Shown here in pieces: positions 2,393 through 28,825 of a stretch of 64,000 bases of DNA (positions are counted from its first letter, which is position 1; the number at the start of each line of letters is the position of its first letter). Source of the stretch: Bacillota bacterium (GTDB taxonomy: Bacteria; Bacillota; Sulfobacillia; JAIMAT01); NCBI GenBank assembly GCA_029960955.1, contig JASBVS010000002.1, positions 1 through 64,000 of the forward strand, in the 5' to 3' direction. Made by a program: the position numbers and the translations under genes. Below the pieces are notes generated by a model. It saw only the letters and a list, made by a program, of their open reading frames with translations, was not told the DNA's origin and did no database searches.

Positions 2393-2468
2393 TGGGGCGT
2401 AGCTCAGCTGGGAGAGCGGCGGTCTCCAAAACCGCAGGCCGTGGGTTCGAGTCCCGCCGCCCCTGCCA
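2393..2468 (+). tRNA. tRNA-Trp(CCA)
   Basis: Anticodon loop CTCCAAA gives CCA with normal U33. Acceptor TGGGGCG/CGCCCCT leaves a T1-T72 mismatch where most bacterial tRNA-Trp have A-U; T-stem contains one G-U pair; discriminator G and CCA encoded. Otherwise close to the usual bacterial tRNA-Trp. Confidence 0.9.
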
Positions 2469-2475
2469 ACCTTTC

Positions 2476-2504
2476 GCCCGGCCCTTCGGGGCCGGGCCTT
2501 TTTT
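2476..2504 (+). terminator. Intrinsic terminator after the tRNA pair
   Basis: Perfect 9-bp stem GCCCGGCCC/GGGCCGGGC with a TTCG tetraloop followed by CTTTTTT. It ends the nuclease-tRNA operon. Confidence 0.9.
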
Positions 2505-2542
2505 CTTCTCACGCAGATCGTCGGGAAAGGGGGTTGGACGGG

Positions 2543-3982
2543 ATGTCCACACCCATGGCCGAGTCGTCCACACCTGACGTGGGCGCGTACACGCCCTACA
2601 CACAGCCGACCAGGGACAACACGACAGAACCCGCGGGCGGCCTCGCCGATGCCCTTGCCCTATTGCACCTGCTCTTCGCCCGCCCCGGCGTCGCGGGCTA
2701 TCTCGAGATCCGTTTGCTCCCCGAAGGCGTCGGCCGCCCCGAGCAGCGCTTTTTCGCGCTTCCCGGCGGCGTCGAGGCCGCAGCCCACTTCGCCGCATCC
2801 ATGTCGGGCCGGGCGCATGTGACCTTCGGCGTCTACCCGCGCTCGCGGCCGCGCGGCCGCGACGACGACGCGGCGCTGGCCACCTGCCTCTTCGCCGACT
2901 TGGACAGCAAGGACTTCGCCGGTGGAGTCGATGAGATCGACCGGCAGCTGGCCGGGCTGGCGGAGAGAGGCCTCGCCCCCACGGCCGTCGTCGCGTCGGG
3001 CGGCGGGCGGCACGCCTACTGGCTGCTCGAGCGGCCCGTGCCGCTGGGCGCGCCGGACGATCCGCGCAGGGACCGCGTGCGGGCCGCCCTCTGGGCGCTC
3101 GGAGCAGAGCTCGGGCTCGCTCCCGCCGCGAATGTCACCCACGACCTCGCCAGGGTCCTCCGACTGCCGGGGACGCTCAACGTCAAGGCCCGCTACGGCC
3201 GGCCGGTCATGGCGCGGATCCTCTCGCTCGACCCGTCCAGGATCTACCGGCCGCAAGACTTCACAGACGTGATCCGGTGCCATCCCATGCCCGCCAGCGG
3301 CCGGGCGGCCGACGTCCACTTCACGCGGGCACCGATGGCCGGCGTCCCGCTGTCCAGGCTCCTCTCCGGCCTCCAGCTAACAGACGAGATCCGCGACCTC
3401 ATCCGCCGCGGCGTGCGGCGTGACGAGGGCGACCGGTCGGCGGCCAGCCAGCGCGCGATCACGGCCCTGCTCGCTGCCGGGGCGGACCCGGATCGCATCC
3501 GCGACGTCTTTGCCTGCACAGAGGCCGGGATCGGCGAGAAGTTCCGCGAGCGGCGCGACGGCGACAGGTGGCTCGCCCACTCCATCTCGCGCGCCAAGGC
3601 GTGGCTCCGCTCCGAAGGCTCCGCGATGACGGACGCTGGGCGGGCGGGCGCGGGCCGCGTGCGGCTCGACCGCGAGGCCGCGGCGCTGGCGCCCGATGTC
3701 CAGCTGCGCGCGATCCTCCTCGATGGCGCGCCCGCCGAGCTGCGGACGATGGCCGACCGGGCCGAGTGGCCCGATGCGCGGGCGCGGGCCAAGGCCGCCA
3801 CGGCCATCGCCTCCGCGCTCCTGCGGACAGGGATGCCGCCGGCGGCGGCCTACGCTGCGCTCAGGTCGCACGCCATAGGGAGCGGAGTCCCGGCGCGGGA
3901 CGCGGCGCGGTGGGTCCAGGTGGCCGAGAAGCGCGCCGCGGCACTCAAGGCGAAGCGGAAGGGAGGTGCTGGACGTGGATGA
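2543..3982 (+). CDS. Primase-polymerase (AEP/RepB-primase type)
   Basis: 479 residues from ATG 2543, chosen because AAAGGGGG lies 9 nt upstream; reading further upstream would run into tRNA-Trp. Seen: CLFADLDSKDF (paired acidic metal ligands), VASGGGRHAYWLLERP (histidine of the AEP active site) and DLARVLRLPGTLNVK, in the order typical of archaeo-eukaryotic-type primases of plasmids and prophages. The C-terminal third (RDEGDRSAASQRAITALL...) matches the helical region following such domains. It makes primers for replication of the element, together with the helicase encoded immediately downstream with an 8-nt overlap. Confidence 0.85.
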   Translation: MSTPMAESSTPDVGAYTPYTQPTRDNTTEPAGGLADALALLHLLFARPGVAGYLEIRLLPEGVGRPEQRFFALPGGVEAAAHFAASMSGRAHVTFGVYPRSRPRGRDDDAALATCLFADLDSKDFAGGVDEIDRQLAGLAERGLAPTAVVASGGGRHAYWLLERPVPLGAPDDPRRDRVRAALWALGAELGLAPAANVTHDLARVLRLPGTLNVKARYGRPVMARILSLDPSRIYRPQDFTDVIRCHPMPASGRAADVHFTRAPMAGVPLSRLLSGLQLTDEIRDLIRRGVRRDEGDRSAASQRAITALLAAGADPDRIRDVFACTEAGIGEKFRERRDGDRWLAHSISRAKAWLRSEGSAMTDAGRAGAGRVRLDREAAALAPDVQLRAILLDGAPAELRTMADRAEWPDARARAKAATAIASALLRTGMPPAAAYAALRSHAIGSGVPARDAARWVQVAEKRAAALKAKRKGGAGRG

Positions 3983-6494
3983 CGCGACTCAGGGCAGCGC
4001 CGCGAAGGAGCGGGTGGCCGAGCTGGTCGGGCGACTCCTTAATCGTGCTGAGACTGGCGAGCCGATCGATGCACAGCTCGTTCGCCGCGCCCTCGCAAAG
4101 CTCGACGGCGAGCCCGGGGCGGAGGAGCTGCGCGCGCGGGCCGAGGCCGTGCTGGCGAAGGCCGCCGTGGCTGTGGCGGCAGATGATGCGACCGGCACTG
4201 AAGCCGCGGATGGCGCGGCGGGCGGAGAGGCCGAAGGAGAGACCGCTGGCAGCGAGGCGGGATCGGATGAGGTCCTGGCTGGAGATGAGGCCGCCGCGGC
4301 AGAGGAGACCATCCTCGACCTCATCCGGGCTCTCCCGGAAAGCCCATCGGAGGATGAGATCGACGCCGTTATCGAGGCCATCGCGGCCATCGACAGCGAC
4401 CTCCAGGCCGCGCCGCTAAAGCGGGCGTTGGCGAAAAAACTTGGCGCCAAGCTGCGCGATGTGGCCGACGCCATCGCCCACGCGAGGGCGCGGATGGCCG
4501 CGGCAGCGGGCGAGCGGCGCGACGACCGGACGTTCGCCACGCTCCTCCACGGCCAGACGCCGCCCGGGATGCCCGCCGGGCTCGTCCTGCCGCCGCCGTA
4601 CGCTCTCTCGCCGCGCGTCCGCCCAGGGCACGAGGACGAGGAGCCGGACTGGCACGTGGTCGTGGAGCGGCCGGACTTCGTGGAAGAGGTCCTGCCGGCC
4701 GTCGTAGTGCCCATCGCCCGCCGGCGCGACCCCGACGCGGACTCGTGGTCGCTCGCGCTCGCTGTGCGACGGAACGGCTCATGGATAACGGTTGAAGCGG
4801 ATCGATCGACGCTGGCCGACAGTCGCAAGATCCTCCAGCTGGCAGATAGCGACTTCCCGATCAACTCGGATAACGCAAAGCTCGTCGTTCGCTATATCGC
4901 CGATGTCGAAACCGCCAACCTCCACCTTCTCCCGTCCGGCGTCCTCGTCCGCTCCCTCGGATGGCGCGAGATCGACGGCCGCCGGTGCTTCGTGCTGGGC
5001 GAGCGCATACTCGCCGCGCCGGACCCGTCCGGCGCGCCGGGCGACGTGCCTCCCATCACGGTCCGCCCGCCAGAGGCGGGCGAGCGGCGGCTCATGGCCG
5101 GCTTCGCTACGGGCGGGACGCGGGATGGATGGATCGGCCTCTACCGCCGCATCCTGCCCTACCCGAGGATCCGGATCGGGCTCTATGCGTCGCTCGCGGC
5201 ACCACTCATCTCGCACGTCGGGGTGCAGGGGTTCACCATCCATTACGCAGGGTTAACATCGAAAGGTAAAACGACTGCACAGCAGATCGCCGCGAGCGTG
5301 TGGGGATACCCCGGCGGGCCGGGCCTCGAAGCGAGGCCCGGCCTCATCGTCGGCTGGAACGGGACCTTCGTCGGAAACGAGCAGCTGGCGGCGTTCCTCC
5401 GGAACCTCCCGGCGCTTCTCGATGACTCCGGCCTCGTGCAGGACCGAGAGGTCATCGCCCAGACGCTTTACGCCATCGCAAACGGCATGGGCCGCCGCCG
5501 CGGCGCGCGATCCGGCGGCACGCGGGCGACGGGCGAATGGGCGCTCACCGCGATCTCGACGGGCGAGAGGATCGTCACATCGTCGTCCGCAGACGCCGGC
5601 GGCGCGCAGGTGCGCGTGATCGAGCTCGAGGGCAACGTCCTCGCGCCCATGCGCCGAGGCGGAGCGGAGGCTGAAGGCGCGCTCTCGGAGGATCGCGCGG
5701 CCGAGCTCATGCGGGAGCTCAGGCGGCTCGCCGGCGAGCATTACGGTGTGGTGGTCGAGCCTTATTTGCGGACCCTTATGTTAATGGAGGATATCGAACT
5801 CCAGCAGAAATTCGACAAAGCCCTTCACGCGATGCTCGACGCCGCCGGCGACGCGGCCCGAACCGACATGGGCTCGCGGCTCGCCGGCGCGTTCGCCACC
5901 ATGGCGTTGGCGGCGGACATCATGCACGAGGCGATCGGGCTCGACGCGGAGATCCCGCGGCGGAAGCTCTGGGCCGAGATCGGCGAGTGGTTTCGCGACT
6001 ATTTGGCTGAGAATCCTCCCGAACACGTCGACCTGCGCGCGTACCGCGAGTTGATGGGCTGGATCGCCGCCCACGCCGCCGAATTCGCCGGAGGGCCGGG
6101 CGCGCCGACCGGCGACGCGGCACCGAAGACCGGATGGTCGGGGAAGTGGTCCGTCACGGCGCGCGGCCCGCGCGGGCCGGTGGAGTGTGTGGCGGTGGTG
6201 GAGGCGAAGCTCTACGAGGTGCTGGCGGACATGGGCTATTCTGATGGGCGCGGACTCGTCCGGCAGTGGCGCGACCGCGGGCTGCTCGTCCCGGATGCGG
6301 ATGGAAAGCATCTGGCCCGGAAGGTCAGGCTCGGCACGTCGGCCGATTCGCCCACGGCGAGGTGCTTCGCGCTCGTGCGGGACGCGCTCGACGAGGATGA
6401 GGATGGCGCTGAAATTCCAGCACTTGGCAAAGTGACAGATGATTCCAGCTCCGAATCGCTTGAATCCGTTGATGACGACTTCGATGTGTTCTGA
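3975..6494 (+). CDS. DUF927-family replicative helicase
   Basis: 839 residues from GTG 3975 (SD GGGAGG 8 nt upstream; overlaps the primase stop). Residues ~40-190 are a long acidic, helical, low-complexity region. The C-terminal half has a Walker A (GLTSKGKTT), a Walker B-like LPALLDDSG and the sequence EWALTAISTGER, as in DUF927 helicases paired with primases on mobile elements. It probably loads at the adjacent repeat region and unwinds the origin. The C-terminus is very acidic (DEDEDGAE, ESVDDDFDVF). Confidence 0.8.
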   Translation: MDDATQGSAAKERVAELVGRLLNRAETGEPIDAQLVRRALAKLDGEPGAEELRARAEAVLAKAAVAVAADDATGTEAADGAAGGEAEGETAGSEAGSDEVLAGDEAAAAEETILDLIRALPESPSEDEIDAVIEAIAAIDSDLQAAPLKRALAKKLGAKLRDVADAIAHARARMAAAAGERRDDRTFATLLHGQTPPGMPAGLVLPPPYALSPRVRPGHEDEEPDWHVVVERPDFVEEVLPAVVVPIARRRDPDADSWSLALAVRRNGSWITVEADRSTLADSRKILQLADSDFPINSDNAKLVVRYIADVETANLHLLPSGVLVRSLGWREIDGRRCFVLGERILAAPDPSGAPGDVPPITVRPPEAGERRLMAGFATGGTRDGWIGLYRRILPYPRIRIGLYASLAAPLISHVGVQGFTIHYAGLTSKGKTTAQQIAASVWGYPGGPGLEARPGLIVGWNGTFVGNEQLAAFLRNLPALLDDSGLVQDREVIAQTLYAIANGMGRRRGARSGGTRATGEWALTAISTGERIVTSSSADAGGAQVRVIELEGNVLAPMRRGGAEAEGALSEDRAAELMRELRRLAGEHYGVVVEPYLRTLMLMEDIELQQKFDKALHAMLDAAGDAARTDMGSRLAGAFATMALAADIMHEAIGLDAEIPRRKLWAEIGEWFRDYLAENPPEHVDLRAYRELMGWIAAHAAEFAGGPGAPTGDAAPKTGWSGKWSVTARGPRGPVECVAVVEAKLYEVLADMGYSDGRGLVRQWRDRGLLVPDADGKHLARKVRLGTSADSPTARCFALVRDALDEDEDGAEIPALGKVTDDSSSESLESVDDDFDVF

Positions 6495-6543
6495 TTCCGC
6501 CGGCTTTCGAGCCATCCGCTAGGTTTTCGTCTAGTGAAACTCT

Positions 6544-6916
6544 GAAGCCGTTGAGCGGCGCGGATGTTCCCACTGTTCCCACCATTACGATTTTCGCCGC
6601 GACAAGTGGGAACAGCCGAAAGCCTTGAGCGACAAGGCTTTCGGGGCGATGTTCCCACTGTTCCCACCTGTTCCCACCAGTTATGTGTATTATATAGGGC
6701 ACACTCGACTTCACTCTGGTGAAGTGTGAGATGACCCTTATTAAGGCATGCATCCCGAGAAGTGGGAACATCCGCGTTTCCAGCGGCAAAAACCCTTGAG
6801 CGACAAGGCTTCTGGCTGTTCCCACCTAGGTGGGAACATGGTGGGAACAGGTGGGAACATCTGAGACACGCGTGACTGGAAAGCCTTGCGTGACAAGGGT
6901 TTTACCCTGTTCCCAC
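6544..6916. repeat. Candidate replication origin: GTTCCCAC iterons, hairpins, AT-rich patch
   Basis: The octamer GTTCCCAC occurs 12 times in about 350 bp: top strand at 6566, 6575, 6651, 6660, 6670, 6818, 6909; inverted (GTGGGAAC) at 6606, 6762, 6830, 6841, 6851. Two of these form a perfect 20-bp palindrome at 6818-6837. Three small hairpins built on CCTTG-n5-CAAGG (near 6622, 6793, 6881) alternate with them. An AT-rich patch (TTATGTGTATTATATAG, from 6681) and a hairpin CTTCAC-tctg-GTGAAG (6710-6725) sit in the middle. There is no convincing gene. Position after primase and helicase genes supports an origin; that is inference. Confidence 0.7.
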
Positions 6917-6955
6917 CAGCCCTCACGGAACTGGAAATTCCCCTCCCGTGTAGGC

Positions 6956-7072
6956 CCTCTCACGGGAGAGGCCCCTCCCAGGGAGGCGTGACATCCTCTC
7001 ACGGGAGAGGCCCCTCCCAGGGAGGCGTGACATCCTCTCACGGGAGAGGCCCCTCCCAGGGAGGCGTGACAC
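6956..7072. repeat. Three tandem 39-bp repeats, each with two hairpins
   Basis: Copies at 6956-6994, 6995-7033 and 7034-7072 are almost identical, followed by a decayed fourth copy to ~7112. Each unit holds two inverted repeats: CCTCTC-acgg-GAGAGG and CCTCCC-a-GGGAGG, then CGTGACAT. They adjoin the iteron block and may be part of the origin or a set of transcription-blocking hairpins. There are no spacers, so this is not a CRISPR array. Confidence 0.85.
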
Positions 7073-7239
7073 CCCTCTCTCATGGGAGAGAGCCACACGC
7101 CACAGGCGTGAAGCTCCTTCTCCCATCTCCCACGCCAAGCAAGCTGACCCACTACCCGTGTAGGACCCTCTCACGGCCTAGGCCTGCCGCGCACTCGTGT
7201 CGCGCAGCGCCCCCACACAAGGCCGCCACGGCCATCCCT

Positions 7240-7274
7240 GCCCGGCACGCCCGATCCGTGCCGGGCTTCTCTTC
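7240..7274 (+). terminator. Intrinsic terminator before the recD-like gene
   Basis: Perfect 10-bp stem GCCCGGCACG/CGTGCCGGGC, 7-nt loop, then TTCTCTTC. It would stop transcription arriving from the repeat region. Confidence 0.7.
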
Positions 7275-7300
7275 ATCACGCCCAGAGCGAGGTGATCCCC

Positions 7301-9760
7301 GTGAGCGTGTCTGTCACGGCACCGGCCGCCCCGGCGCGGAAACCCGCCGGCCAGGCCGTGGATGCTGAGGTGACGGTCACAGCCGTGCTGGATCGCTGCC
7401 GCTACACATCCCGCCCAGGCCAGGCACCGTTCGCCGTGTGGACGGTCGTCCCGGCCGACGCGCGCGGCCGCAGATCCGGCGAGCCGTTCGCGGCGCGCGG
7501 GCGGCTGGCGGACTGGGGCCGACCGGGTGACGTGGTGCGGCTCGTCGGCCGGTGGGTGGACGACCCGCGGTGGGGCCGGCAGCTCGAGGTCGAGGCGATC
7601 CTGCCAGTCCAGCCGGCGGACTTGGCGGGACTCGTTAGGTGGCTCGAGTCGCAGGACGGGATCGGCCCCGTCACGGCCACCTCCGTGGTGAAGGCGCTGG
7701 CCGCCGCGGGCCCCGCCGACGCCTCGGATGGCGACGTCCTGGCCCGCTTCAAGGCGTGGGTCGCATCGGGCGGGCCGGGCGCGCTCGGCCTGCCCGCGCC
7801 GCGCGTCGAGGCCCTGCGTTCGGCCGCCGAGCGGGCCTCCGCCGACGAGGACCGCGCGCGCGTGCTGGTCTGGTGCCGCCGGGCGGGCCTGGGCCCTGCG
7901 ACGGCGGAGGCTGTGTGGAGGCGCTTCGGCCGCGAGGCGCTGGACATCCTGCCGCGCGACCCGTGGGCGCTCGCGCGCGTGGACGGGGTCGGCTTCCTAA
8001 CGGCCGACGCCGCGGCCGAGGCGCTCGGCGTGGATCCCGCGTCGCCAGGCCGGATGCGGGCGGCGCTTCTCCACACGCTGGCCGAGGCGGCGGACGAGGA
8101 TGGGCACGTCTGGCTGCCGATGGACGGCCAGGACGGACTCGTCCGCCGGGCCTTCGAGGCCATGCGCAGAGTCGCCGAGAAGCGTGGTTACGGCAAGGGC
8201 CGCGGGCGAGAGATCCTGGATGGCCTGCCGGCGGCGCTGGATGCGCTCGAGAGGCGTGGAGAGGTCATCGTCGTGGATGCCGATGGGCGGAGGCTCGTCT
8301 ACCTGCCGGAGCTTTACCACGCCGAGGAGTCCGTCAGGACGTGGCTCTGGTCTGCGCCGACCCGCCCGGGCCTTCTAGACGAGGACGATGCGCGCGGTCT
8401 CCTGAATGACCCATCCGTCCGCGGCCCGCTCGACGACGCCCAGGCGGCCGCGGCACTGGCCGCCCTCACATCGGGCGTGAGCGTGATCACGGGCCCGCCC
8501 GGCGTGGGGAAGACGACCGTGATCAAGGCGATCCTGCGCGCCGCCGAGGCCGCGGGCGCGGCGCCGGAGGCGGTTCTGCTGGCTGCGCCGACGGGCCGGG
8601 CGGCGAAGCGCATGTCGGACGTGACGGGCCATCCGGCGCAGACCATCCACCGCCTGCTCGAGTTCCATCCATCGCTCGGCTTCCGAAGGACCCGCGACAA
8701 CCCGCTCGCCGGCCGCCTGCTCGTGGTGGATGAGGCGTCGATGGTCGACGTCAGGCTCTTCGCGGCGCTCGTCGAGGCGGTGCCGCCGCGCATGGCGGTC
8801 GTGATGGTGGGCGACCGCGATCAGCTCCCGCCGGTGGGCCCTGGCGCTCCCTTCCACGTGCTGGCACGCGGCGGCGTGCCCGGCGTCCGTGTGGCCGTCC
8901 TCGACAGGATCTACCGCCAAGACGCCGGCTCGGCGATCCCCCGGAACGCGGTGCGGATCCGCCGCGGGGAGATGCCCGAGCGCGACGGCGGCCCGGCGTG
9001 GCGGGTGCGGATCTACGCGCGGCCCGATGCGGCGTGGCCGTCGAAGGAGGCGTGGCTTGAGGCCGGGCGGGCGCTCAGGCGCCGAATGGCGGACGACGCG
9101 GTGGAGGCCGTGATGGCGCTCGTCGCCCAAGGCATCTCTCCGGACGACGTGCAGGTTCTGGCACCCATCCGCCGTGGCGAGGCGGGTGTTGACGAGCTGA
9201 ACAAGCGGTTGCGCGACGTGTTGAATCCTCTGCGGCCTGGGATGGGCGTCTGGCGCTCGCGGTCGGGTGCGACGGAGTTCCGCGAGGGCGACCGGGTGAT
9301 TCACATTGTCAACAACTACCAGAAGATGGTCATGAACGGCGAGGTCGGCCGCGTCGTGGCGGCGGGCGAGATCGCCGTGGACGGCGAGGGCAATCCGGTC
9401 TCGATGGATGACATGTCTCCGCTGGCCCTGGCGCTCGCCGGCGCGGAGCGGATCCGCGGCGTGGTGGTCGAGTTCCCGGATTACGCGGGCGGCGGGGCGC
9501 GCCGGGTGGCCTACGCGGCGGACGAGGTGGGGCAGCTGCGGCTCGCCTACGCCTCGACGGTCCACAAGTTCCAGGGCAGCGAGGTCCCCGCGGTCGTGTT
9601 CGTCATCGGGATGGATGCCTTCACGCTCCTCAAGCGCCCTCTGGCCTACACAGCCGTCACCCGCGCGCGGGACAGCGTGCTTGTGCTGGCCGAGGAGGGC
9701 GCGCTGGAGCGGGCCGTGGCGGCGGACGAGGACCTGCGCCGGAATCAGCGGCTGGTTTGA
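7301..9760 (+). CDS. RecD2-like superfamily 1B DNA helicase
   Basis: 819 residues from GTG 7301, placed 8 nt after GAGGTGAT (GTG 7292 would overlap that SD). N-terminal OB-like part, then helix-hairpin-helix motifs (DGIGPVTATSVV, LGPATAEAVW, VDGVGFLTADAA), Walker A GPPGVGKTT, Walker B LLVVDEASMVDV, and the C-terminal ASTVHKFQGSEVP and YTAVTRARDSVLVL motifs. This order is that of RecD2, a 5'-3' helicase acting without RecBC. On an element it could serve recombination or strand processing during transfer; no relaxase domain is seen. Confidence 0.88.
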   Translation: MSVSVTAPAAPARKPAGQAVDAEVTVTAVLDRCRYTSRPGQAPFAVWTVVPADARGRRSGEPFAARGRLADWGRPGDVVRLVGRWVDDPRWGRQLEVEAILPVQPADLAGLVRWLESQDGIGPVTATSVVKALAAAGPADASDGDVLARFKAWVASGGPGALGLPAPRVEALRSAAERASADEDRARVLVWCRRAGLGPATAEAVWRRFGREALDILPRDPWALARVDGVGFLTADAAAEALGVDPASPGRMRAALLHTLAEAADEDGHVWLPMDGQDGLVRRAFEAMRRVAEKRGYGKGRGREILDGLPAALDALERRGEVIVVDADGRRLVYLPELYHAEESVRTWLWSAPTRPGLLDEDDARGLLNDPSVRGPLDDAQAAAALAALTSGVSVITGPPGVGKTTVIKAILRAAEAAGAAPEAVLLAAPTGRAAKRMSDVTGHPAQTIHRLLEFHPSLGFRRTRDNPLAGRLLVVDEASMVDVRLFAALVEAVPPRMAVVMVGDRDQLPPVGPGAPFHVLARGGVPGVRVAVLDRIYRQDAGSAIPRNAVRIRRGEMPERDGGPAWRVRIYARPDAAWPSKEAWLEAGRALRRRMADDAVEAVMALVAQGISPDDVQVLAPIRRGEAGVDELNKRLRDVLNPLRPGMGVWRSRSGATEFREGDRVIHIVNNYQKMVMNGEVGRVVAAGEIAVDGEGNPVSMDDMSPLALALAGAERIRGVVVEFPDYAGGGARRVAYAADEVGQLRLAYASTVHKFQGSEVPAVVFVIGMDAFTLLKRPLAYTAVTRARDSVLVLAEEGALERAVAADEDLRRNQRLV

Positions 9761-12023: not shown

Positions 12024-12042
12024 CTAAATGGAGGTGGATGAG

Positions 12043-12852
12043 ATGGCTGACATCATGACAGCGGCCCCGGCGGCGAGGGGCCGCCGTCGCTTCACAGACA
12101 GCGACATTTTGAATGCGCTCCGCGCGGCTTACCAGGAGACCGGCCGCGTCCCGACGGTCGCGTCTTGGCGTGCGGAAGGCCGCAGTCCATCGCCGATGTC
12201 GATCTTCGTCCGCTTCGGCTCGTGGTCGGAGGCGCTCCGGATGGCCGGCCTGCCCGTGTCCGGCAGGTCCGCTGGGATCCCTGTCCGTCGCGCCCGCACT
12301 CGCGAGCGCCATCTGGCCATCCTGCGCGAGGTGGGTGCCAGCCACGGCGGGCCGATCACCATGAAGCGGTGGGATACCGAGGGCATCAGGCCTGCGGCCC
12401 ACACGATCGTGATCCGTTTCCGCGGCTGGCGCAGGGCATGGGAGGCGGCCGGGTTTGCCTGGCGCCGTGAGGGTCGCGATCGGATATCGGACGACGAGAT
12501 CCTCGCCCGGATGCGCGAGGCGACCGCCCGGGCGGGAAGGGCGCTCACGGTGAAGGAGTGGGACCGCGCGGGCCTTCTCCCATCCGCATCGACCATCGCC
12601 CGCCGGTTCGGAAGCTGGCCCGCGGCGTGGCGCGCCGCGGGCGTGGGGCACCCGCGTGATAGCTCCGCGCGTCTGGAGGCCGCCCGCGCGCGGCTCAAGG
12701 CTGGTGGGCTCACCGCCGCGGAGAGGCGGGCGCTCGAGGCGGTCATCGCGACCGGATCGGAGTCCGCGGCCGCTCAGCGGCTCGGCGTGACGCGCCAGGC
12801 TGTGTCGTTCGCCGTGCTGCGCGCCCTGCGCCGCCCGGCTCCGGCGGCTTGA
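12043..12852 (+). CDS. DNA-binding protein with three HNR repeats and a sigma-like HTH
   Basis: 269 residues; ATG 12043 is 7 nt after GGAGGTG. Three copies of the homing-endonuclease-associated repeat are seen at ~15-75, ~88-145 and ~153-208; each begins with D-x-x-I-L and ends in R-F-G/R-x-W...A-x-x-A-G (RFGSWSEALRMAG, RFRGWRRAWEAAG, RFGSWPAAWRAAG). The C-terminus has a region-4-like HTH (SESAAAQRLGVTRQAVSFAV). There is no nuclease domain, so it is probably a sequence-specific regulator or origin binder. Confidence 0.75.
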   Translation: MADIMTAAPAARGRRRFTDSDILNALRAAYQETGRVPTVASWRAEGRSPSPMSIFVRFGSWSEALRMAGLPVSGRSAGIPVRRARTRERHLAILREVGASHGGPITMKRWDTEGIRPAAHTIVIRFRGWRRAWEAAGFAWRREGRDRISDDEILARMREATARAGRALTVKEWDRAGLLPSASTIARRFGSWPAAWRAAGVGHPRDSSARLEAARARLKAGGLTAAERRALEAVIATGSESAAAQRLGVTRQAVSFAVLRALRRPAPAA

Positions 12853-12871
12853 GAAAGAGGAGGCGGTGGAC

Positions 12872-15334
12872 GTGGCGCTCGTGATGGAACGCGCGGGAGT
12901 CATGATGCGCGGGGCGGCTGCTTCCTGGGATGAGGGGGCGGCCGCCCGGCTTCTCGCCAGGGTCGCCCGCTTCGCGGCACTCGACTGGCGCCGCCGGCCG
13001 GCGAAGGCGCGGGTGATCCTCTCCCGGATCAGCGATGCCTATGGGCCGTTGATCGACGAGGCCTTCGACTCCGGCGACCCGGCCGCGTTCCGCGCCGCGC
13101 TCCGCGAGGCGACCCGGGCGTGGCGGCTCGCTGCGGAGAGGGCCGAAGGCCTGCGGCCGCCTGTCCGCGATGCCGCCGGGCGAGCGGCTTGGGCACGGCT
13201 GCTTCGCGAGATCAGGTGTCGCGACCGGTCGCTCGCGCGGGACGTCGCCGCGCTCGAGGCCGCCGGTGCGTCGCTCGAGTTCGACCATGCCCACGGCTCG
13301 TGGCGCCTTTCGCCCGGGCGGATGGGCGAGCGGGCCTATGAGATGTGGAAGGCCCGCCGCTTCCGCGGCGACGGGGGCCGCGCGCGAGCGGCGGCGCTCC
13401 GCGAGGCGATCTTCGCGCTGCCGAAGCCGGCGCCGGAGGAGCCACCCGGCGCCCCGGCGCGGGCGGGCTTCGACCCGTCGGCCGTGGAGCATGAGGTGAC
13501 TGGAAGCCCGTCAGACCTGGCCGAAGCGCTCGCCGCCGCCAGGCGCGCGGGCGTGGCCGGCCTCGATGTGGAGACGATGCCGGGCCCCGCGGTGGCGGGG
13601 CTCGCGGGCCGGTGGGCGGAGAGGGCGCCGCTCGATCCGCATCTCGGCCGCATCAGGCTCGTGCAGGTCGCCGTGCCCGGCAGGCCGGTCCTGCTCTTCG
13701 ATGTCAGGCGGCTGTGGGACCTTCCCGACGGGGAGCGGGCGCGGGCGCTCGCGCCGCTCGCCGAGCTCCTGGCCGACCCGGAGATTGTGAAGGTCGGCCA
13801 CAATCTGAAGTTCGACCTCCAGATGCTCCGGGGCCTCTTCGGCCTCGGCTGGGGCCGGCGGCTCCGGGTCGGGGGCATCTGGGACACGATGCTGGCCGAC
13901 CAGCTCCTGGCCTGCGGGATGTGGGCCGAGGACGGGTACGGTCTGAAGGCGGTCGCCCGGCGGAGGCTGGATGTGGAGCTGGACAAGTCCGAGCAGACGT
14001 CGGACTGGTCGCGCGATCTCACATCTGATCAGCTCCGCTACGCGGCGCTCGACGCGGCCGTGCTGCTCCCGATCCGCGAGGCGCAGGCCGCCGAGGTCGG
14101 GCGGCTCGGGCTCGGGCGGGCGATGCGGCTGGAGAACGAGGCCCTGCCGGCGGTGGCAGATCTCGAATGGGCCGGGCTCGGCTTCGATCAGGAGCGGTGG
14201 GAGGCGCTGCGCGACGACGTGCGCCGGCGGGCGGCCGACGCGAGGGCGCGGCTCGTGGCGCTTCTCGGGCGGGCGTCGGACGGCCCCGTGCAGCAGGATC
14301 TCTTCGGCGGCGCCGTCGAGGCGATCGATCCCGACTCACCCAAGCAGGTGTTGGAGGCGCTCCACCGGCTCGGGATCGACGTCCCGGACACGCGGGACTC
14401 GACGCTGGCGGCCGTGGCGGACCGCGAAGAGGTGCGGGCGCTCCTGGGCTACCGCGAGCTGGCGAAGGCGCTCTCGGCCTTCCTCGACCCCTATTTGGAA
14501 CTCGTCCATCCCGTTACGGGCCGGATCCACGCGAGCTTCCACCAGCTCAACAGGAATGGCGTGGGCCGCTTCTCTGCATCGGACCCGAACGTGCAGCAGT
14601 GGCCGCGTGATCCCGAGTACCGCGCCTGCGTCATCCCGGCGTCAGGCCGGAAGCTCGTGATCGCCGACTACTCTGCGATTGAGATGCGGATCATGGCGCG
14701 TCTCTCTGGTGATCCCGGCCTGACCCGCGTGTTCCAGGAGGGCGCGGATCCGCACCGGCGGACGGCGGCGCTGATCATGGGGAAGCCGGAGACCGAGGTG
14801 ACGAAGGAGGAGCGGCAGCTGTCAAAATCAGTAAATTTTGGAATGCTCTATGGAATGGGCGCGGCGGGGTTTCAGCGCTACGCGAAGGCCCAGTATGGGG
14901 TCGACTTGACGCTTGAGGAAGCCCGCCGGTTCCGCGACGCGTATTTCCGCGCCTACCCGGGCGTGGCGGCCTTCCACCGGCGGCAGGACGCCGTTGCCCG
15001 CAGGGAGATGGCGGTTCGCACGCTCTCGGGCCGGATGCGCCGGTGGTCCAGTCACGACATGCCGCTGACGGAGCTGGCCAATACGCCCGACCAGGGCACC
15101 GGCGCAGACATCCTGAAGCGGGCGCTCGCCCGTGTGAGGCCTCACCTCGACCGCCTCGATGGCGAGATCGTGAACATCGTCCACGACGAGATCGTGCTCG
15201 AGGCGCCTGCGGATCGGGCCGAGGAGGCGCGTGACATCCTCGCCGCCGAGATGAGGGCGGCGGGCGAGGAGTTCCTGTACCCGGTGCCGGTGGAGGTCGA
15301 GGCCGAAGTCGGGGAGAGCTGGGCAGACAAGTGA
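12872..15334 (+). CDS. polA: Family A DNA polymerase with DEDDy 3'-5' exonuclease
   Basis: 820 residues; GTG 12872 is 8 nt after AGAGGAGG. An N-terminal region of ~200 residues is unassigned. The exonuclease has LDVET, VGHNLKFDLQML and LRYAALDAAVLL. The polymerase has motif A DYSAIEMRIMA, motif B KSVNFGMLYGMGA and motif C VHDEI. No 5'-nuclease domain is visible, unlike chromosomal Pol I. A polymerase of this type is common in phages and large plasmids and would replicate the element with the clamp encoded just downstream. Confidence 0.93.
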   Translation: MALVMERAGVMMRGAAASWDEGAAARLLARVARFAALDWRRRPAKARVILSRISDAYGPLIDEAFDSGDPAAFRAALREATRAWRLAAERAEGLRPPVRDAAGRAAWARLLREIRCRDRSLARDVAALEAAGASLEFDHAHGSWRLSPGRMGERAYEMWKARRFRGDGGRARAAALREAIFALPKPAPEEPPGAPARAGFDPSAVEHEVTGSPSDLAEALAAARRAGVAGLDVETMPGPAVAGLAGRWAERAPLDPHLGRIRLVQVAVPGRPVLLFDVRRLWDLPDGERARALAPLAELLADPEIVKVGHNLKFDLQMLRGLFGLGWGRRLRVGGIWDTMLADQLLACGMWAEDGYGLKAVARRRLDVELDKSEQTSDWSRDLTSDQLRYAALDAAVLLPIREAQAAEVGRLGLGRAMRLENEALPAVADLEWAGLGFDQERWEALRDDVRRRAADARARLVALLGRASDGPVQQDLFGGAVEAIDPDSPKQVLEALHRLGIDVPDTRDSTLAAVADREEVRALLGYRELAKALSAFLDPYLELVHPVTGRIHASFHQLNRNGVGRFSASDPNVQQWPRDPEYRACVIPASGRKLVIADYSAIEMRIMARLSGDPGLTRVFQEGADPHRRTAALIMGKPETEVTKEERQLSKSVNFGMLYGMGAAGFQRYAKAQYGVDLTLEEARRFRDAYFRAYPGVAAFHRRQDAVARREMAVRTLSGRMRRWSSHDMPLTELANTPDQGTGADILKRALARVRPHLDRLDGEIVNIVHDEIVLEAPADRAEEARDILAAEMRAAGEEFLYPVPVEVEAEVGESWADK

Positions 15335-15347
15335 GGTGGATGGTTTG

Positions 15348-15435
15348 ATGAGGCGCGCTGCGCTGGCGGCCCTGGTGGCCGCCAGCGCTTCTTCTGTCGG
15401 CCTGTGGCGGGGCCGGTCCCGCAGGGTGGCCGGGC
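15348..15435 (+). other. Signal-peptide start out of frame with the thioredoxin-like gene
   Basis: ATG 15348, placed after GAGGTGGAT, encodes MRRAALAALVAASASS, a signal-peptide start. The next gene's frame, read upstream of its TTG, gives PALLLSACGGAGPAG, a lipobox with cysteine codon at 15403. Joining the two by a one-base shift would give a normal lipoprotein leader. Either a frameshift mutation, sequence error or recoding. Confidence 0.5.
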
Positions 15436-15903
15436 TTGAGGACGGAGCGGACGCAGATCGGCACGGTGAAGATGCTCGCGGGCGGACCCACGCCGATGGT
15501 GATCACGGCGACGGACGCGCAGGGCAGGCAGGCGCGGCTCGACCTGCGTGACGGACCCGTTCTCGTGGCAGCGTGGTGGTGTCCGCACTGTGCGAGGCTT
15601 CTCGCGCGGTCGGACATGCCGGGGCTCCCGCGGATGGTGACAGTCTGGCCGCAGTCCGGGCAGACGCTGAAGCAGGCCCTCCAGGCCGAGCAGGCCATGA
15701 TGCAGGCCGACGGCTGGCGGGGCGACTGGGCGCATGGGCTCTACGCGGCCGAGACGGTGCCCGGGGTGGACACGGTGCCCATGCTCCTCTATCTCGATCA
15801 CGGCGTGGTGAAGGAGCTGAAGGGCGAGATGATGCCGGCGGCCGAGGCGGCGCGGATCATCGGCGGGAAGGCCGCGTTCACGAAAGGAGTGAATGGCGGA
15901 TGA
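15436..15903 (+). CDS. Thioredoxin-fold protein with CPHC motif
   Basis: 155 residues from TTG 15436. VLVAAWWCPHCARLL carries a C-P-H-C redox motif after a beta strand, and VDTVPMLLYLDHGVVKEL contains the cis-proline region of thioredoxin-like proteins. It is probably an extracytoplasmic thiol-disulfide protein: the upstream sequence encodes a lipoprotein leader in a shifted frame (see 15348-15435). The stop overlaps the following start. It may oxidise cysteines of secreted proteins or pilins of the element. Confidence 0.7.
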   Translation: MRTERTQIGTVKMLAGGPTPMVITATDAQGRQARLDLRDGPVLVAAWWCPHCARLLARSDMPGLPRMVTVWPQSGQTLKQALQAEQAMMQADGWRGDWAHGLYAAETVPGVDTVPMLLYLDHGVVKELKGEMMPAAEAARIIGGKAAFTKGVNGG

Positions 15904-16109
15904 GCGAGGAGCGGATCGGATCGGACGAACTCGCCCGGCTTGCGAGGATCGCATGGGGACTTGCCGCGGCGGCCCAGGAAGGTGAACGGGAGTGGCTGGC
16001 CTGTGATCTGTTGCGCGTGGTCCTCGCAGATATCTACGGGATCCGCGAGCCGCGCGCCAGCGATCTGGCATCGCGGGCCGTGCGGATCCAAGCCGCTGTG
16101 ACGGCGTGA
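15900..16109 (+). CDS. Small hypothetical helical protein
   Basis: 69 residues; ATG 15900 overlaps the previous stop (ATGA), with AAAGGAGTGA upstream. Predominantly helical and acidic at the start (SEERIGSDELARLARIA). No motif recognised. Last gene before a terminator. Confidence 0.65.
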   Translation: MSEERIGSDELARLARIAWGLAAAAQEGEREWLACDLLRVVLADIYGIREPRASDLASRAVRIQAAVTA

Positions 16110-16157
16110 GCGCTGTCCGCCCGCCAACGGGCGGCGGGCGAAGCGTTCCGATGAGAG

Positions 16158-16182
16158 GCGGGCCTTCGGGCCCGCTTTCTTC
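16158..16182 (+). terminator. Intrinsic terminator
   Basis: 7-bp stem GCGGGCC/GGCCCGC with TTCG tetraloop, followed by TTTCTTC. Confidence 0.8.
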
Positions 16183-16201
16183 ATGCGCGAAGGGAGGTGG
16201 C

Positions 16202-16453
16202 GTGCCGGTGTCCATCGGCGTGGCGAGGCATTGCGCGGTCTGCGGCAGGCCGGTCTGGGACACGACGGGGGCCGACGGCATCTGCCCGTTCTGCTTCGAG
16301 CGCTGCTCGCGCCCGTGCGATATCTGCGGCGAGCGGACCTGGCCTAGCGTGAACCGCTACGAGGACTTCACGGCGGGGGAGATCGTCTGCGAGCGGTGCG
16401 CCGAGGGCGCGAGGGCCCGCGGACACGAGATCCACTTGATCGAGGTCGAGTGA
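16202..16453 (+). CDS. Multi-zinc-ribbon small protein
   Basis: 83 residues from GTG 16202, after AGGGAGGTGG. Four CxxC pairs (CAVC, CPFC, CDIC, CERC) plus extra cysteines in ERCSRPC point to two zinc ribbons. Such proteins often bind nucleic acid or act as adaptors. It sits directly before the sliding-clamp gene and may be cotranscribed with it. Function unknown. Confidence 0.7.
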   Translation: MPVSIGVARHCAVCGRPVWDTTGADGICPFCFERCSRPCDICGERTWPSVNRYEDFTAGEIVCERCAEGARARGHEIHLIEVE

Positions 16454-16468
16454 GGGAGGTCGATAAGC

Positions 16469-17638
16469 ATGCGTGCGACGGTGAAGAGGTCCGATCTTGA
16501 GAAGGCTGCCGCGGGGGCGCTCCGCGCCGTGGCGGCGAAGCCGCCGGTGCCAGTGCTCGCGTTCCTGCGGATCGAGGCCGGCGATGGCCGTATCGAGGTC
16601 GCCGGGTCGTCGCTCGAGGCGACGGTCCGGCTGGCGGCGCCCGCGGATGTGGAAGAGGGCGGCGCGGCGCTTGTGCCGGCGCGCCTCTTCGCGGAACTTC
16701 TGCGCCTGGCCGGATCCGATGAGATCCGGCTCGGGCCGGCGCCCGGCGGCGTGGAGCTCTCCTGGCCGGGCGGCCGGCACGCGCTTCGCGGCCCCGACCC
16801 GGCGGAGTGGCCCGAGGGCCTGGATCAGGCACCCGCCGCCGGCGACGCGGCCGCGGTCCCTGCGCGGGCGCTGGCTTCCGGGATCCGGCTCGTCGCCCCG
16901 GCGGCGCTCGGCGACCTGTCGCGCCCACCTCTCCACGGCGTGCGGGTCCGCGTCGCCGACGGGGAGCTGGAGCTGCTGGCACTGGACGGGATCCGCGTGA
17001 GCCGCTTCCGCGCCGACGGCGCTGGGGGCGGGCCGCTCGAGGCGATCGTCCCGGCGGCGTGGGCGAAGTTGCTGGCGGACCTGCTGGCGGGGGCGGGCGA
17101 GGACGAGGAGGTCTGGCTCGAGCCGCGCGGCGGCGCCGGCGGGATGCTGGCAGCCATGCTTCCAGGCGGCGGGCTGTGCATGCTGGAGTGTCTGGACGGC
17201 CGGCTGCCCGACGTCGGCGCGATCCTCCCGCGGGATTACCCGATCCAGGCGGGCGTGGACGCGAGCGCGCTCGTCGCGGCAGCGGAGCGCCTGGCCCTGG
17301 CCGGGTTGCCCATTGGGATGGGGATCGGCGACGGCCGTATCCGGCTCGCCACGGTGGCGGATGGATCGGCAGACCCGGCGGACCTGGCGTCGGAGGAGCT
17401 GGAGGCCGATACGGCGGGGGATGGCGAAGCGGCATTCGACCCGCGCTTCTTCCTGCAGGCCGTGAGGCTGGCCGCCGGCGCGGGCGGCGAGATCAGCGTG
17501 GAACTTTCCGGTCCGCTCTCGGCGGCGATGATCACGGGCATGGGCGCGCCGGGGTTCGAGCACTGGCTCATGCCGATGCGGATCGGGCCGGCGGCCGCCC
17601 AAGCTGAGCCGGCGGCCGCCGCTGCGCCGGTGGCGTGA
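16469..17638 (+). CDS. dnaN: DNA polymerase sliding clamp (beta subunit)
   Basis: 389 residues, ATG 16469 after GAGGGAGG. The start MRATVKRSDLEKAAAGALRA and the repeated three-domain pattern (LPVLAFLRIEAGDGRIEVAG-like first strands, then LHGVRVRVADGELELLALDG, and the C-terminal EHWLMPMRI) match bacterial beta clamps. The ring would tether the element-encoded polymerase to DNA. The C-terminus carries an extra Ala/Pro-rich tail (~20 residues) beyond the usual M-P-M-R-end. An element-encoded clamp is uncommon and points to replication independence. Confidence 0.9.
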   Translation: MRATVKRSDLEKAAAGALRAVAAKPPVPVLAFLRIEAGDGRIEVAGSSLEATVRLAAPADVEEGGAALVPARLFAELLRLAGSDEIRLGPAPGGVELSWPGGRHALRGPDPAEWPEGLDQAPAAGDAAAVPARALASGIRLVAPAALGDLSRPPLHGVRVRVADGELELLALDGIRVSRFRADGAGGGPLEAIVPAAWAKLLADLLAGAGEDEEVWLEPRGGAGGMLAAMLPGGGLCMLECLDGRLPDVGAILPRDYPIQAGVDASALVAAAERLALAGLPIGMGIGDGRIRLATVADGSADPADLASEELEADTAGDGEAAFDPRFFLQAVRLAAGAGGEISVELSGPLSAAMITGMGAPGFEHWLMPMRIGPAAAQAEPAAAAAPVA

Positions 17639-17650
17639 GGCGCCGGGTCG

Positions 17651-17932
17651 TCAGCCTTCGCTGCCCTCTCGCGCGCCCACGGCCGCCTCGAGCGCCTCGA
17701 CGCGCTCGTAGAGCTCCCGGACGGCGCGCTCGAGCCGCTTCACGGTCTCGAGCGGCAGCTCGCCCTTCGGCGCCTCCGGATCGTCAAGGTAGCGCAGGAC
17801 GAGCTTCGCGGCAAGCGAGGAGATGGACTCATCGCTGAGCTTCGCTGCGCGCTCGAACTTTTCGTAGACGGCAGGCGTGACGTAAACCGCGATCATTTTC
17901 AGGGATCTCTGATACCGGCGCTCTACCAACAA
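17651..17932 (-). CDS. Ribbon-helix-helix (CopG-like) repressor with coiled coil
   Basis: 93 residues on the minus strand, opposite to its neighbours. MIAVYVTPAVYEKFERAAKL followed by SISSLAAKLVLRYL fits a ribbon-helix-helix fold; the C-terminal half (LETVKRLERAVRELYERVEALE) is a coiled coil. TTG 17932 follows GGAGGG; ATG 17896 is an alternative start. A promoter and ACAGTAT repeats lie just upstream. Likely a local repressor, perhaps of its own gene and of the operon at 326. Confidence 0.7.
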   Translation of the reverse strand: MLVERRYQRSLKMIAVYVTPAVYEKFERAAKLSDESISSLAAKLVLRYLDDPEAPKGELPLETVKRLERAVRELYERVEALEAAVGAREGSEG

Positions 17933-17941
17933 ATCATCCCT

Positions 17942-17980
17942 CCTGTGGACAGTATGACATCCAAACAGTATCCAGGCAAC
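17942..17980 (-). promoter_or_regulatory. Minus-strand promoter with paired ACAGTAT boxes
   Basis: On the minus strand TTGCCT, 17-nt spacer, CATACT gives a reasonable promoter for the RHH gene. Two direct copies of ACAGTAT (17949-17955 and 17965-17971, 16 bp apart) overlap it, a spacing that suits cooperative RHH dimers. GACAGTATG (17948-17956) is identical to the -35 region of the promoter at 280. Confidence 0.55.
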
Positions 17981-18065
17981 CGCGCCGGCGAGCGGCGGCC
18001 GCGGCGGGCATCGGTCTGGCGCGAAGGTCAGGGAAGGTCAGAAGCTGCGGCGGGAGGTGGTCGGC

Positions 18066-20198
18066 GTGGACGGACTCCGGCGCCCGCGCGCCGTGAGCCT
18101 CGCCTCTGGTGCTGGCGGGCTGGACCTGGGCTTCGTCGCGGCGGGCTTCGAGCTGGTGTTCGCTATGGACTTCGACCCGGCGGCCGTCGCCACACACGAG
18201 CGGAACTTCGGCCCGGGCATCGCCCGCGTGGCGGACCTGACGCGGCTCGCGCCGGAGGAGATCCCGGACGCGGACGTGTGGATCGCGGGGCCGCCGTGCT
18301 TCCCGGCCGGTACGCCCGTGCTGACGGCCGCGGGGCCGGTGCTGATTGAGGAAGTGCGGCCCGGCGATCTCGTCCTCACCCACAATGGGCGATATCGCCA
18401 GGTGACTGCTACCATGCGGCGGCCCTACTCCGGGCCACTGGTCCGGATGGGGTTCGGGTACGGCGTCCGGGAGATCGCCTGCACGCCGGAGCATCCGTTC
18501 CTCGTGCGCAGGAGGGAGGGGCGGCGCTGGGGCCGGGCGGCCGACGGCAGGAGGATCGTCCGCACGGTCTTCGAGGACCCGGCGTGGATCGAGGCCAAGG
18601 ATGTTCGCCCCGGCGATCTGGCGCTGATGCCCTCCGTCCGTGAGCCGCACGAAGGCTTCGTCGCGCGCAAGGCCAGGATCGATTCCGCCGGTTCGTGGAT
18701 CCCCGTCGAGTCCATCGCCCTGACGGAGCCCGTCAGTCTCGATGTCCACAATCTAGCGGTGGAGGAAGACGAGAGCTACGCCGTCGGGGATGGCGTGGCG
18801 GTTCACAACTGCCAGCCGTTCAGCGTCGCTGGGAAGCGCGGCGGGGCCTTCGACAACCGCGACATGTGGCCGCACGTGTTGCGGCTGCTGGAGGCGAAGC
18901 TCCCGCCGTTCGCCGTCTTCGAGAACGTGCCCGGGATGCTTTCCTGGAACAACGGCACCTACGTGCGGGAGATCGAGGGCCGCTTCCGGGCGCTCGGCTA
19001 CCGCTTCACGCGTGCGGTGCTGGACGCGGCCGACTTCGGCGTGCCGCAGCATCGCCGCCGCGTGGTCTGGCTCCTGAGCCGGGTCGGCCCGCCGCCCGAG
19101 CCGCCGGAGCCGACGCACGGCGATCCGAGGGGGCTGGCCCAGGCCGGCCTCTTCTCATCCCAGCGCAGGCCCTGGGTCACGGTCCGGCAGGCGCTGGGCC
19201 TGGGCGGGGCGCTCTCGGACCAGTGGGCCGAGGGGCGGGCCGCCGCGCCCTGGTACGGCACCGACCGCCCGTCGAGGACGCAGAGCACGCGTCCCCAGCG
19301 GCACGCGCCGCCCAGCCCGCTCGACGCGCCATCGCCGGCCGTGTCGGCGGTCGAGTCCAAGGGCGCGAGTCCGGCGGACGTGCGCCGGGCGGCGGAGGGG
19401 CGGGCGCGGAAGGCGTCGTCCGTCCTGGGGCTTCTGGACGAGGATGACGCTCTCCGCGTGATCGCTCAGCGGAACGCCCGCGCGCCAGGGCACGGCGATG
19501 GCGCGGTGCTTGATGAGCCATCGGTGGCCATCTGCGCCGGCGGCTCCGTCGAGCTGGTCACGCCGGCCATCGACGCGGGCGGGTGGCACCACGCGGCCCC
19601 GCGCATCCGGAGCCACTCGGCAGGGCACGGCGACGGCGCAGATCTCGACTCGCCCAGTGTGACGGTAGCGGCGGATAGGGGCCTGGAGCTGACGGTCCGG
19701 TCGAAAGTGGCCGTTCGGGCACCGGACCTCGATGCGCCAGCACCGACCTTGCAGGTCGATGCCCGTGTGTCGGCCCCAGGCCATCACGGGCCGGGGATGC
19801 CGCGGATGGCACCCGGCGTGATCCCTGTTCCCGATCCCGGCGGTGCGCTCCCCGACGATCCCGCCCATACCCTGGACCACGCCGGCGGGCCGCGCCGGCG
19901 GGAGCTGCGCGATGCGCCGGGGTCGCAGGGCGGGGCCGCGATGCGGCTCAGGCGGCTCACTGTTCGGGAGTGCGCGCGGCTCCAGTCCTTTCCTGATTGG
20001 TTCGAGTTCACAGGATCCACGTCGGCCCGGTACCGGCAGGTCGGCAACGCCGTGCCGCCGCTCTTGGCTTGGCATCTGGCCAATGCCGTGCGCCGGGCGA
20101 TGGGGCTGGTGCCCGTGCCGGTGCCGGACGCGCTGGAGTGGTTCGCGTCGCGGCCGCTGGTGGCGGATGGGTGGGTGACGCCCGATGGGCGGCGCTGA
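18066..20198 (+). CDS. DNA (cytosine-5) methyltransferase interrupted by an intein
   Basis: 710 residues before splicing; GTG 18066 is 8 nt after GGGAGG. Motif I VSLASGAGGLDLGF, motif IV GPP-C-QPFS (split by the intein), motif VI FENVPG, motif VIII QHRRRVVWL, motif IX RRLTVRECARLQSFPDWF and motif X YRQVGNAVPPLLA are all present. The long region between VIII and IX holds repeated GHGDGA-x-LD-x-PSV units, perhaps part of target recognition. It would methylate cytosine to protect or mark the element. It overlaps the adenine methyltransferase gene; no partner restriction enzyme is seen. Confidence 0.92.
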   Translation: MDGLRRPRAVSLASGAGGLDLGFVAAGFELVFAMDFDPAAVATHERNFGPGIARVADLTRLAPEEIPDADVWIAGPPCFPAGTPVLTAAGPVLIEEVRPGDLVLTHNGRYRQVTATMRRPYSGPLVRMGFGYGVREIACTPEHPFLVRRREGRRWGRAADGRRIVRTVFEDPAWIEAKDVRPGDLALMPSVREPHEGFVARKARIDSAGSWIPVESIALTEPVSLDVHNLAVEEDESYAVGDGVAVHNCQPFSVAGKRGGAFDNRDMWPHVLRLLEAKLPPFAVFENVPGMLSWNNGTYVREIEGRFRALGYRFTRAVLDAADFGVPQHRRRVVWLLSRVGPPPEPPEPTHGDPRGLAQAGLFSSQRRPWVTVRQALGLGGALSDQWAEGRAAAPWYGTDRPSRTQSTRPQRHAPPSPLDAPSPAVSAVESKGASPADVRRAAEGRARKASSVLGLLDEDDALRVIAQRNARAPGHGDGAVLDEPSVAICAGGSVELVTPAIDAGGWHHAAPRIRSHSAGHGDGADLDSPSVTVAADRGLELTVRSKVAVRAPDLDAPAPTLQVDARVSAPGHHGPGMPRMAPGVIPVPDPGGALPDDPAHTLDHAGGPRRRELRDAPGSQGGAAMRLRRLTVRECARLQSFPDWFEFTGSTSARYRQVGNAVPPLLAWHLANAVRRAMGLVPVPVPDALEWFASRPLVADGWVTPDGRR
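18297..18809 (+). other. Mini-intein (171 residues) in the methyltransferase active site
   Basis: Begins with CFPAGTPVLT and ends with ...GVAVHN before C-QPFS. Block A (C1, GTPVLT), block B (CTPEHPFLV, with T-x-x-H), block F (VSLDVHNLAV) and block G (VHN/C) are all visible. There is room for only a short linker, with no homing endonuclease. Removal joins GPP to CQPFS, so the +1 extein cysteine is also the methyltransferase nucleophile. Splicing residues look intact. Confidence 0.93.
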
Positions 20199-27761: not shown

Positions 27762-27835
27762 GACGCCGTGGCCGAGCGGTCAGGCGGCGGTCCGCAAAAC
27801 CGCCCAGGCAGGTTCGACTCCCGCCGGCGCCTCCA
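27762..27835 (+). tRNA. tRNA-Cys(GCA) with C33
   Basis: Acceptor GACGCCG/CGGCGCC (one A-C mismatch at 2-71), D-stem GCC/GGC, anticodon stem GCGGT/ACCGC, loop CCGCAAA giving anticodon GCA, T-stem GCAGG/CCCGC (one A-C mismatch), encoded CCA. Position 33 is C, as in tRNA-Thr(UGU) of this window. It has its own strong promoter. Confidence 0.85.
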
Positions 27836-28760: not shown

Positions 28761-28825
28761 CTCAAACGGGAGAGCGGCCGCTTCGTAAGCGGCAGGTGCC
28801 GGTTCGATTCCGGCGGCCGGCTCCA
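28751..28825 (+). tRNA. tRNA-Thr(CGU)
   Basis: All stems pair perfectly: acceptor GCCGGCC/GGCCGGC, D-stem GCTC/GAGC, anticodon stem GCCGC/GCGGC, T-stem GCCGG/CCGGC; loop TTCGTAA gives anticodon CGT with normal U33; CCA encoded. It begins inside the last codons of the upstream gene, whose TAG stop supplies tRNA positions 8-10. Confidence 0.93.

Follow-up and report, generated by a model that had tools for sequence, protein, structure and literature searches.

An array of short repeats directly 3′ of a DUF927 helicase gene

The window, by which we mean the whole 64-kb stretch of DNA analysed, carries on its plus strand an AEP-like primase gene (2441-3982), the 3′ end of which overlaps the start of a gene for an 842-aa DUF927 initiator-type helicase (3966-6494). 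The primase match is weak (PHROG phrog_2478, DNA polymerase/primase, 3e-11), with Pfam PF16793 (RepB_primase; 0.0024) below the cut-off. The helicase was assigned by PF06048 (1.6e-35) and PF18662 (5e-6), and its product carries the Cch helix-turn-helix domain of Pfam. A RecD2-like helicase gene, also on the plus strand (7292-9760; Pfam AAA_30 and HHH_RecD2), lies downstream of the putative origin. The region between the DUF927 and RecD2-like genes, which holds the repeats described below, follows directly after primase and helicase genes, in agreement with the original prediction.

Twelve exact copies of the 8-nt word GTTCCCAC are present in both orientations within 351 nt (6566-6916), beginning 72 nt past the helicase stop codon (starts at 6566+, 6575+, 6606-, 6651+, 6660+, 6670+, 6762-, 6818+, 6830-, 6841-, 6851- and 6909+). 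The rest of the window contains one further copy, at 53180, and across 100 shuffles the count averaged 1.15 and never exceeded 4, against 12 in the array; the paired form of the word is unique to the array within the whole 2.26-Mb genome. Word counts and a layout scan divide the iterons into a first set of six (6566-6677; five plus, one minus) and a second set of six (6762-6916; two plus, four minus), and a scan allowing one mismatch likewise gave 6 + 6 iterons, around an 86-bp gap. This stretch between the sets (6678-6761) is the largest inter-iteron gap and a candidate melting site, being 55% AT compared with 44% for the remainder of the array and 29% for the whole window. Both the twelve words and an AT-rich stretch in a GC-rich genome (6678-6760) had been predicted, as had a perfect palindrome made of two of the words; the palindrome is indeed perfect, although it spans 22 bp (6817-6838; inverted-repeat pair I21) and not the 20 bp claimed.

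Hairpins with CCTTG/CAAGG arms were also expected between the words, and we found three copies of CCTTG-N5-CAAGG, at 6623, 6794 and 6884. Only the first is extended into a long hairpin, with a 12-bp stem and a 5-nt loop, between iterons (6616-6644). As single-stranded DNA it folds at -14.9 kcal/mol, a value reached by 0/200 shuffles, and its core stem, GAAAGCCTTG/CAAGGCTTTC, is also present in a relative from the same genus. The second (6794-6808) and third (6884-6898) copies have short stems, and in a fold and terminator check the second was terminator-like on the minus strand. CCTTG-N5-CAAGG was present in 6 of 58 downstream regions other than that of the window (43 kb), out of a total of 16 occurrences in 3.48 Mb of partly overlapping loci; the hairpin is therefore enriched 3′ of helicase genes. 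The longer form AAGCCTTG-N5-CAAGGCTT matched 25 of 398 genomes, and among the 25 loci fetched, DUF927 or GTTCCCAC was nearby at the window's own only; another of these loci (L482) has a different 8-mer, repeated 7-fold. The longer form is mostly far from DUF927 and GTTCCCAC, and we did not retain the hairpin as a second origin element; it looks terminator-like. Six of eight scanned proteins flanking the longer hairpin were of the tRNA (uracil-5-) methyltransferase type, and in this phylum the hairpin was seen near the ends of such genes at L485, L486, L491, L492, L495 and L502.

Beyond the array lie the three predicted 39-bp tandem repeats (6956-7072), which consist of paired GC hairpins and have a degenerate fourth copy beside them. 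Repeat, genome and fold scans found no exact match to their hairpin word elsewhere in the genome, and GC hairpins of a similar kind lie at this position in the same-genus relative. The 39-mers are outside the conserved core of the origin. A search of Rfam with region 6300-7400 gave no match, and GC skew, on a contig that begins at base 1 of the window, gave no clear origin signal.

The wider surroundings include the element's own family A DNA polymerase, a sliding-clamp homologue, a Holliday junction resolvase-like protein and two DNA methyltransferases (12866-21412), among them a C5 cytosine methyltransferase split by a Hint/intein domain (18057-20198). A TraG-like P-loop ATPase (25277-27640), which suggests conjugation genes, is followed by Flp/Tad pilus-type genes at 41-47 kb. 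Four tRNA genes (Thr-TGT, Trp, Cys and Thr-CGT; 2306-2468, 27762-27835 and 28751-28825) lie in and around the mobile-looking part, and the gene at 57368-61663 encodes a 1431-aa product in which ten putative Ig domains are combined with S-layer homology domains.

Kinship of the DUF927 helicase with SaPIbov1 Rep and SCCmec Cch

A profile built from 18 relatives of the DUF927 protein aligned with almost the entire chains of 8TCH (SaPIbov1 Rep; 6.6e-84) and 5DGK (SCCmec Cch; 4e-57), and the same structures were the top two Foldseek hits (3.7e-24 and 2.0e-21, respectively) of an AlphaFold2 model with a mean pLDDT of 81. The helicase is a relative of these two proteins, and the homology covers both its helicase and C-terminal parts. 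This overturns the earlier statement that no known Rep initiator is seen. Classical Rep proteins (Rep_3, RepA_N and the like) were absent from the ten genes between 326 and 17638 searched with Pfam.

The AlphaFold2 model has a C-terminal winged helix at residues ~688-805 (6027-6380, plus strand), with the fold order H-E-E-H-H-E-E and pLDDT mostly above 80, and Pfam HTH_56 matches residues 689-787. From this model we infer that the winged helix may be what reads the iterons. The original prediction had named either an HNR-repeat protein or the helicase as binder; kinship with Rep and Cch favours the helicase, and nothing pointed to the HNH-repeat protein (12028-12852), an improbable candidate.

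Arrays recur beside DUF927 genes not chosen by the word

DUF927 genes were gathered by protein or family search, independently of GTTCCCAC, and the commonest 8-mer was determined in the 760 nt starting 60 nt before each stop codon. An array was scored when this 8-mer occurred at least six times and more often than in every one of 60 first-order Markov shuffles. By this measure 36 of 54 places carry an array (23/36, 6/9, 3/5 and 4/4 in four batches), so the repeats do recur beside orthologous DUF927 genes, the point on which the original prediction had staked itself. The place and layout are conserved, whereas the word itself often changes between DUF927 loci. The 18 places that fell below the threshold include some without a readable downstream end and several distant DUF927 proteins. 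In controls from the first batch, an 8-mer was found at least six times in 1 of 33 upstream regions (L109) and in 0 of 51 mid-gene stretches.

The first batch also included 14 loci retrieved by means of the word, plus the window itself; none of these is among the 54, and other word-selected loci (L021, L032 and further viral ones) were likewise excluded. Two passing places with GC-rich tandem repeats (L179 and L181) are counted in the 36, which becomes 34/54 without them, and were omitted from the layout tally and the correlation analysis below. The denominator retains L211 and L173, each with 60 nt downstream only, L213/L214, which are fragments of one place, and the near duplicates L169/L170; L193 yielded no gene and is uncounted.

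Relatives were present in 21 plasmid and 19 phage records, 16 of which were examined. Arrays lie 3′ of the DUF927 gene in a Geobacillus plasmid (15 copies of TGTCACAA), Thermoanaerobacterium phage THSA-485A (10 of CGGTTACC), Faecalibacterium phage FP_Epona (10 of AGGTGAAA), Streptomyces plasmid pFP4 (9 of AGTTACCC), Pseudomonas phage phiAH14b (7 of GGGGAACA) and a Skermanella plasmid (11 of GGTGGTAC in the 8-mer scan). The same scan gave no passing array in Eubacterium callanderi p1_EUCAMar, Anaerostipes phage AC844P2, Roseburia phage Jekyll, Ruminococcus phage phiRg507T2_2 or Cereibacter sphaeroides plasmid p.C. Scanning viral contigs with a single protein yielded no relative.

The layout was tallied for 38 array loci, word-selected ones included, with one mismatch allowed. 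By our own tally of the rows the median is 12 iterons per locus, and at 32 of the 38 the largest inter-iteron gap is AT-richer than the remainder. Five to seven iterons lie on each side at 15/38 loci, and the split is exactly 6/6 at six (the window, L023, L101, L105, L175 and L189); unequal splits, such as 12/1 and 15/3, are common. Arrays start a median of 25 nt past the stop codon and span ~295 nt (34 loci). The Skermanella plasmid, with the word GGTGGTAC, has six iterons, a 97-bp gap and six more. The corresponding region of PT1028, which we take to be a SaPI-like phage, has CGGGAACTA repeats arranged as six, a 90-bp gap at 80% AT, and three. Since the layout appears beside DUF927 genes of plasmids, phages and chromosomal elements that were not selected for it, sequence alone could suffice to locate origins in a large class of mobile elements.

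The iteron word differs between close relatives

The same-genus relative has a DUF927 protein 57% identical to that of the window, yet its iteron word is GTAACACC and not GTTCCCAC. It shares the 6/6 split, the 86-bp largest gap and the hairpin stem, and its AT patch is similar. The two proteins are more alike in the AAA+ core (identity 0.71) than in the winged helix (0.45); in this closest pair, a single case, the lower value for the winged helix is compatible with a reading code.

Such a code was examined across 32 loci (496 pairs) by partial rank correlation. With ATPase identity taken into account, the similarity of iterons did not track C-terminal identity (-0.03; 1359/2000 permutations as high), and the correlation with ATPase identity given C-terminal identity was 0.24 (25/2000 permutations as high); with identities near 20%, these comparisons carry little signal. 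A winged-helix code shared across loci is thus unsupported, and the value of -0.03 speaks against a simple one. The window and its same-genus relative form natural material for asking which part of the helicase reads the origin.

It seems to us an evenly balanced proposition that the DUF927 helicases of several phyla, in phages, plasmids, satellites and conjugative-type elements, use one origin format: about 12 iterons, as ~6 + ~6 around a ~90-bp AT-rich gap, directly 3′ of the gene, with each subunit of a double hexamer taking one iteron. Within a constant frame, the word would be exchangeable and would have been switched repeatedly (GTTCCCAC, GTAACACC, GGTGGTAC, CCGGGAAC and others), so that initiator and origin would evolve as matched pairs. 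GTTCCCAC would be the commonest word, perhaps the oldest, and VapE helicases would have adopted it or have it in common with the DUF927 ones.

GTTCCCAC at other loci and beside VapE genes

Pattern scans found GTTCCCAC in at least 120 viral and at least 118 genome stretches, and a reversed control word in at least 120. Among the matches listed, GTTCCCAC turns up in phages and in bacteria of several phyla, mostly 3′ of DUF927 and sometimes of VapE; the genome matches listed with the word in this position beside DUF927 come, among others, from Pseudomonas, Azotobacter and Acutalibacter. Clusters of at least four copies lay no more than 700 nt 3′ of DUF927 at 12/45 viral and 22/86 genome loci, and equally close 3′ of VapE at 10/45 and 0/86, respectively, compared with 0/20 (DUF927) and 2/20 (VapE) for the reversed word, all among the matches listed. 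When clusters away from stretch ends were considered, 28 of 36 with at least five copies in mixed orientation were within 1300 nt 3′ of DUF927 (25) or VapE (3), against 0/2 for the control, again among the matches listed. Many genome arrays among these matches instead repeat the word in tandem and in one orientation, with a spacing of 9 to 12 bp, and look unrelated to the origin type. At one locus (L022, 7988-8131), five copies and a CCTTG hairpin lie beside an apparent broken TOPRIM primase fragment, in what looks like an origin remnant.

VapE was considered as a second general carrier. In a phylum-wide sample of VapE genes, 4 of 24 analysed places had at least six repeats above shuffles (L215, L220, L224 and L233; a 25th, L239, gave no gene). 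The downstream-array rule is therefore much weaker there than beside DUF927, and VapE was rejected in this role. Comparison of the VapE and DUF927 C-termini by hhalign gave a probability of 1.1%, with no homology detected. In several phages with VapE primase-helicases (L137, L146, L041 and L050), there are four or five copies of GTTCCCAC, the first of them 2 nt from the gene end.

A probable origin and alternative explanations

Judging from the sequence, we consider it likely that 6566-6916 is the replication origin of a mobile element, of the SaPI/PICI rep-ori type, and that it is read by the adjacent DUF927 helicase. An origin with a dedicated initiator, as first proposed, remains the best reading of the word excess, the kinship with Rep and Cch, and the recurrence beside DUF927 genes. 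We infer that the C-terminal winged helix of the helicase would bind the twelve iterons, each subunit taking one and each ring six; that the two rings would melt the AT-rich gap between the sets; and that both would then be loaded onto single strands, where the adjoining primase would start synthesis and so replication.

Short-repeat arrays also serve partition and autoregulation, and one of the hairpins is terminator-like, so the repeats might instead be an operator or partition-type site for operon control or segregation, with replication starting elsewhere. We regard this as very improbable, as the array is 3′ of the gene and away from the promoter, and its AT-rich gap between two sets of about six matches the proven organisation of the PICI rep-ori, as given in the available part of PMC6092414. 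An origin read by another factor, be it the primase, the HNH-repeat protein or a host factor, with the helicase recruited, seems to us improbable, though a little less so. It would accommodate both the presence of GTTCCCAC 3′ of VapE primase-helicases, whose C-termini have no detected homology to the DUF927 ones, and the negative outcome of the test for coevolution with the C-terminal domain. However, the word varies by locus, which argues against a host factor as reader; the layout tracks DUF927 genes across primase modules of TOPRIM type, Prim-Pol type or none; and, according to the accessible text of PMC7581432, a related protein of SCC elements binds iterons of its own.

The presence in the window of chromosomal-looking genes, such as the Flp pilus genes and tRNAs, would fit an integrated element whose origin was once active and has since fallen silent, but each of the twelve iterons is an exact copy, and the helicase gene and the replication genes around it have open reading frames; the chance of this is similarly small. 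That the array is a chance or functionless satellite repeat is scarcely credible. Many genome arrays of GTTCCCAC among the matches listed are indeed one-orientation tandems with 9 to 12-bp spacing, whereas the array here has mixed orientation, irregular spacing and 12 copies against 1.15 expected, and the recurrence of inner mixed clusters 3′ of DUF927 or VapE (28/36 among the matches listed) contradicts such an origin by chance.

Comparison with known systems

Primase fusions of mobile elements include DUF927 (PMC5862659), which also occurs next to Pol-SSB pairs (PMC10061031), and the parts available of PMC7145576 and PMC2647930 concern other initiators. As judged by listings of the open-access literature, we recognised no description of GTTCCCAC as an iteron. 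The VapE (PF05272) phage modules resemble the present one in having GTTCCCAC just 3′ of the helicase gene (L137, L057, L081 and L112), but belong to another AAA+ family, with C-termini lacking detectable kinship to those of the DUF927 helicases.

Cch of SCCmec is of the same DUF927 helicase family (5DGK). Cch2, in the accessible text of PMC7581432, binds repeats just downstream of its own gene via its C-terminal domain, and thus offers a parallel for both the position of the repeats and the proposed mode of binding; however, it is of another helicase family and its repeats are of the AAGTG type.

The closest parallel in organisation is with SaPIbov1 and other PICIs. The initiator helicase is of the same family (8TCH), and PICI origins, as described in the available part of PMC6092414, lie immediately 3′ of rep, with two iteron sets flanking an AT-rich region, as here, although the iteron word is another one. 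The element described here lies on a 227-kb contig and brings a PolA, a sliding clamp, RecD2 and a TraG-like ATPase of its own. A whole PICI would be a small phage-inducible satellite with repressor, integrase and packaging traits; the TraG-like ATPase and the large replication set argue against one, and the module probably sits in a larger mobile element.
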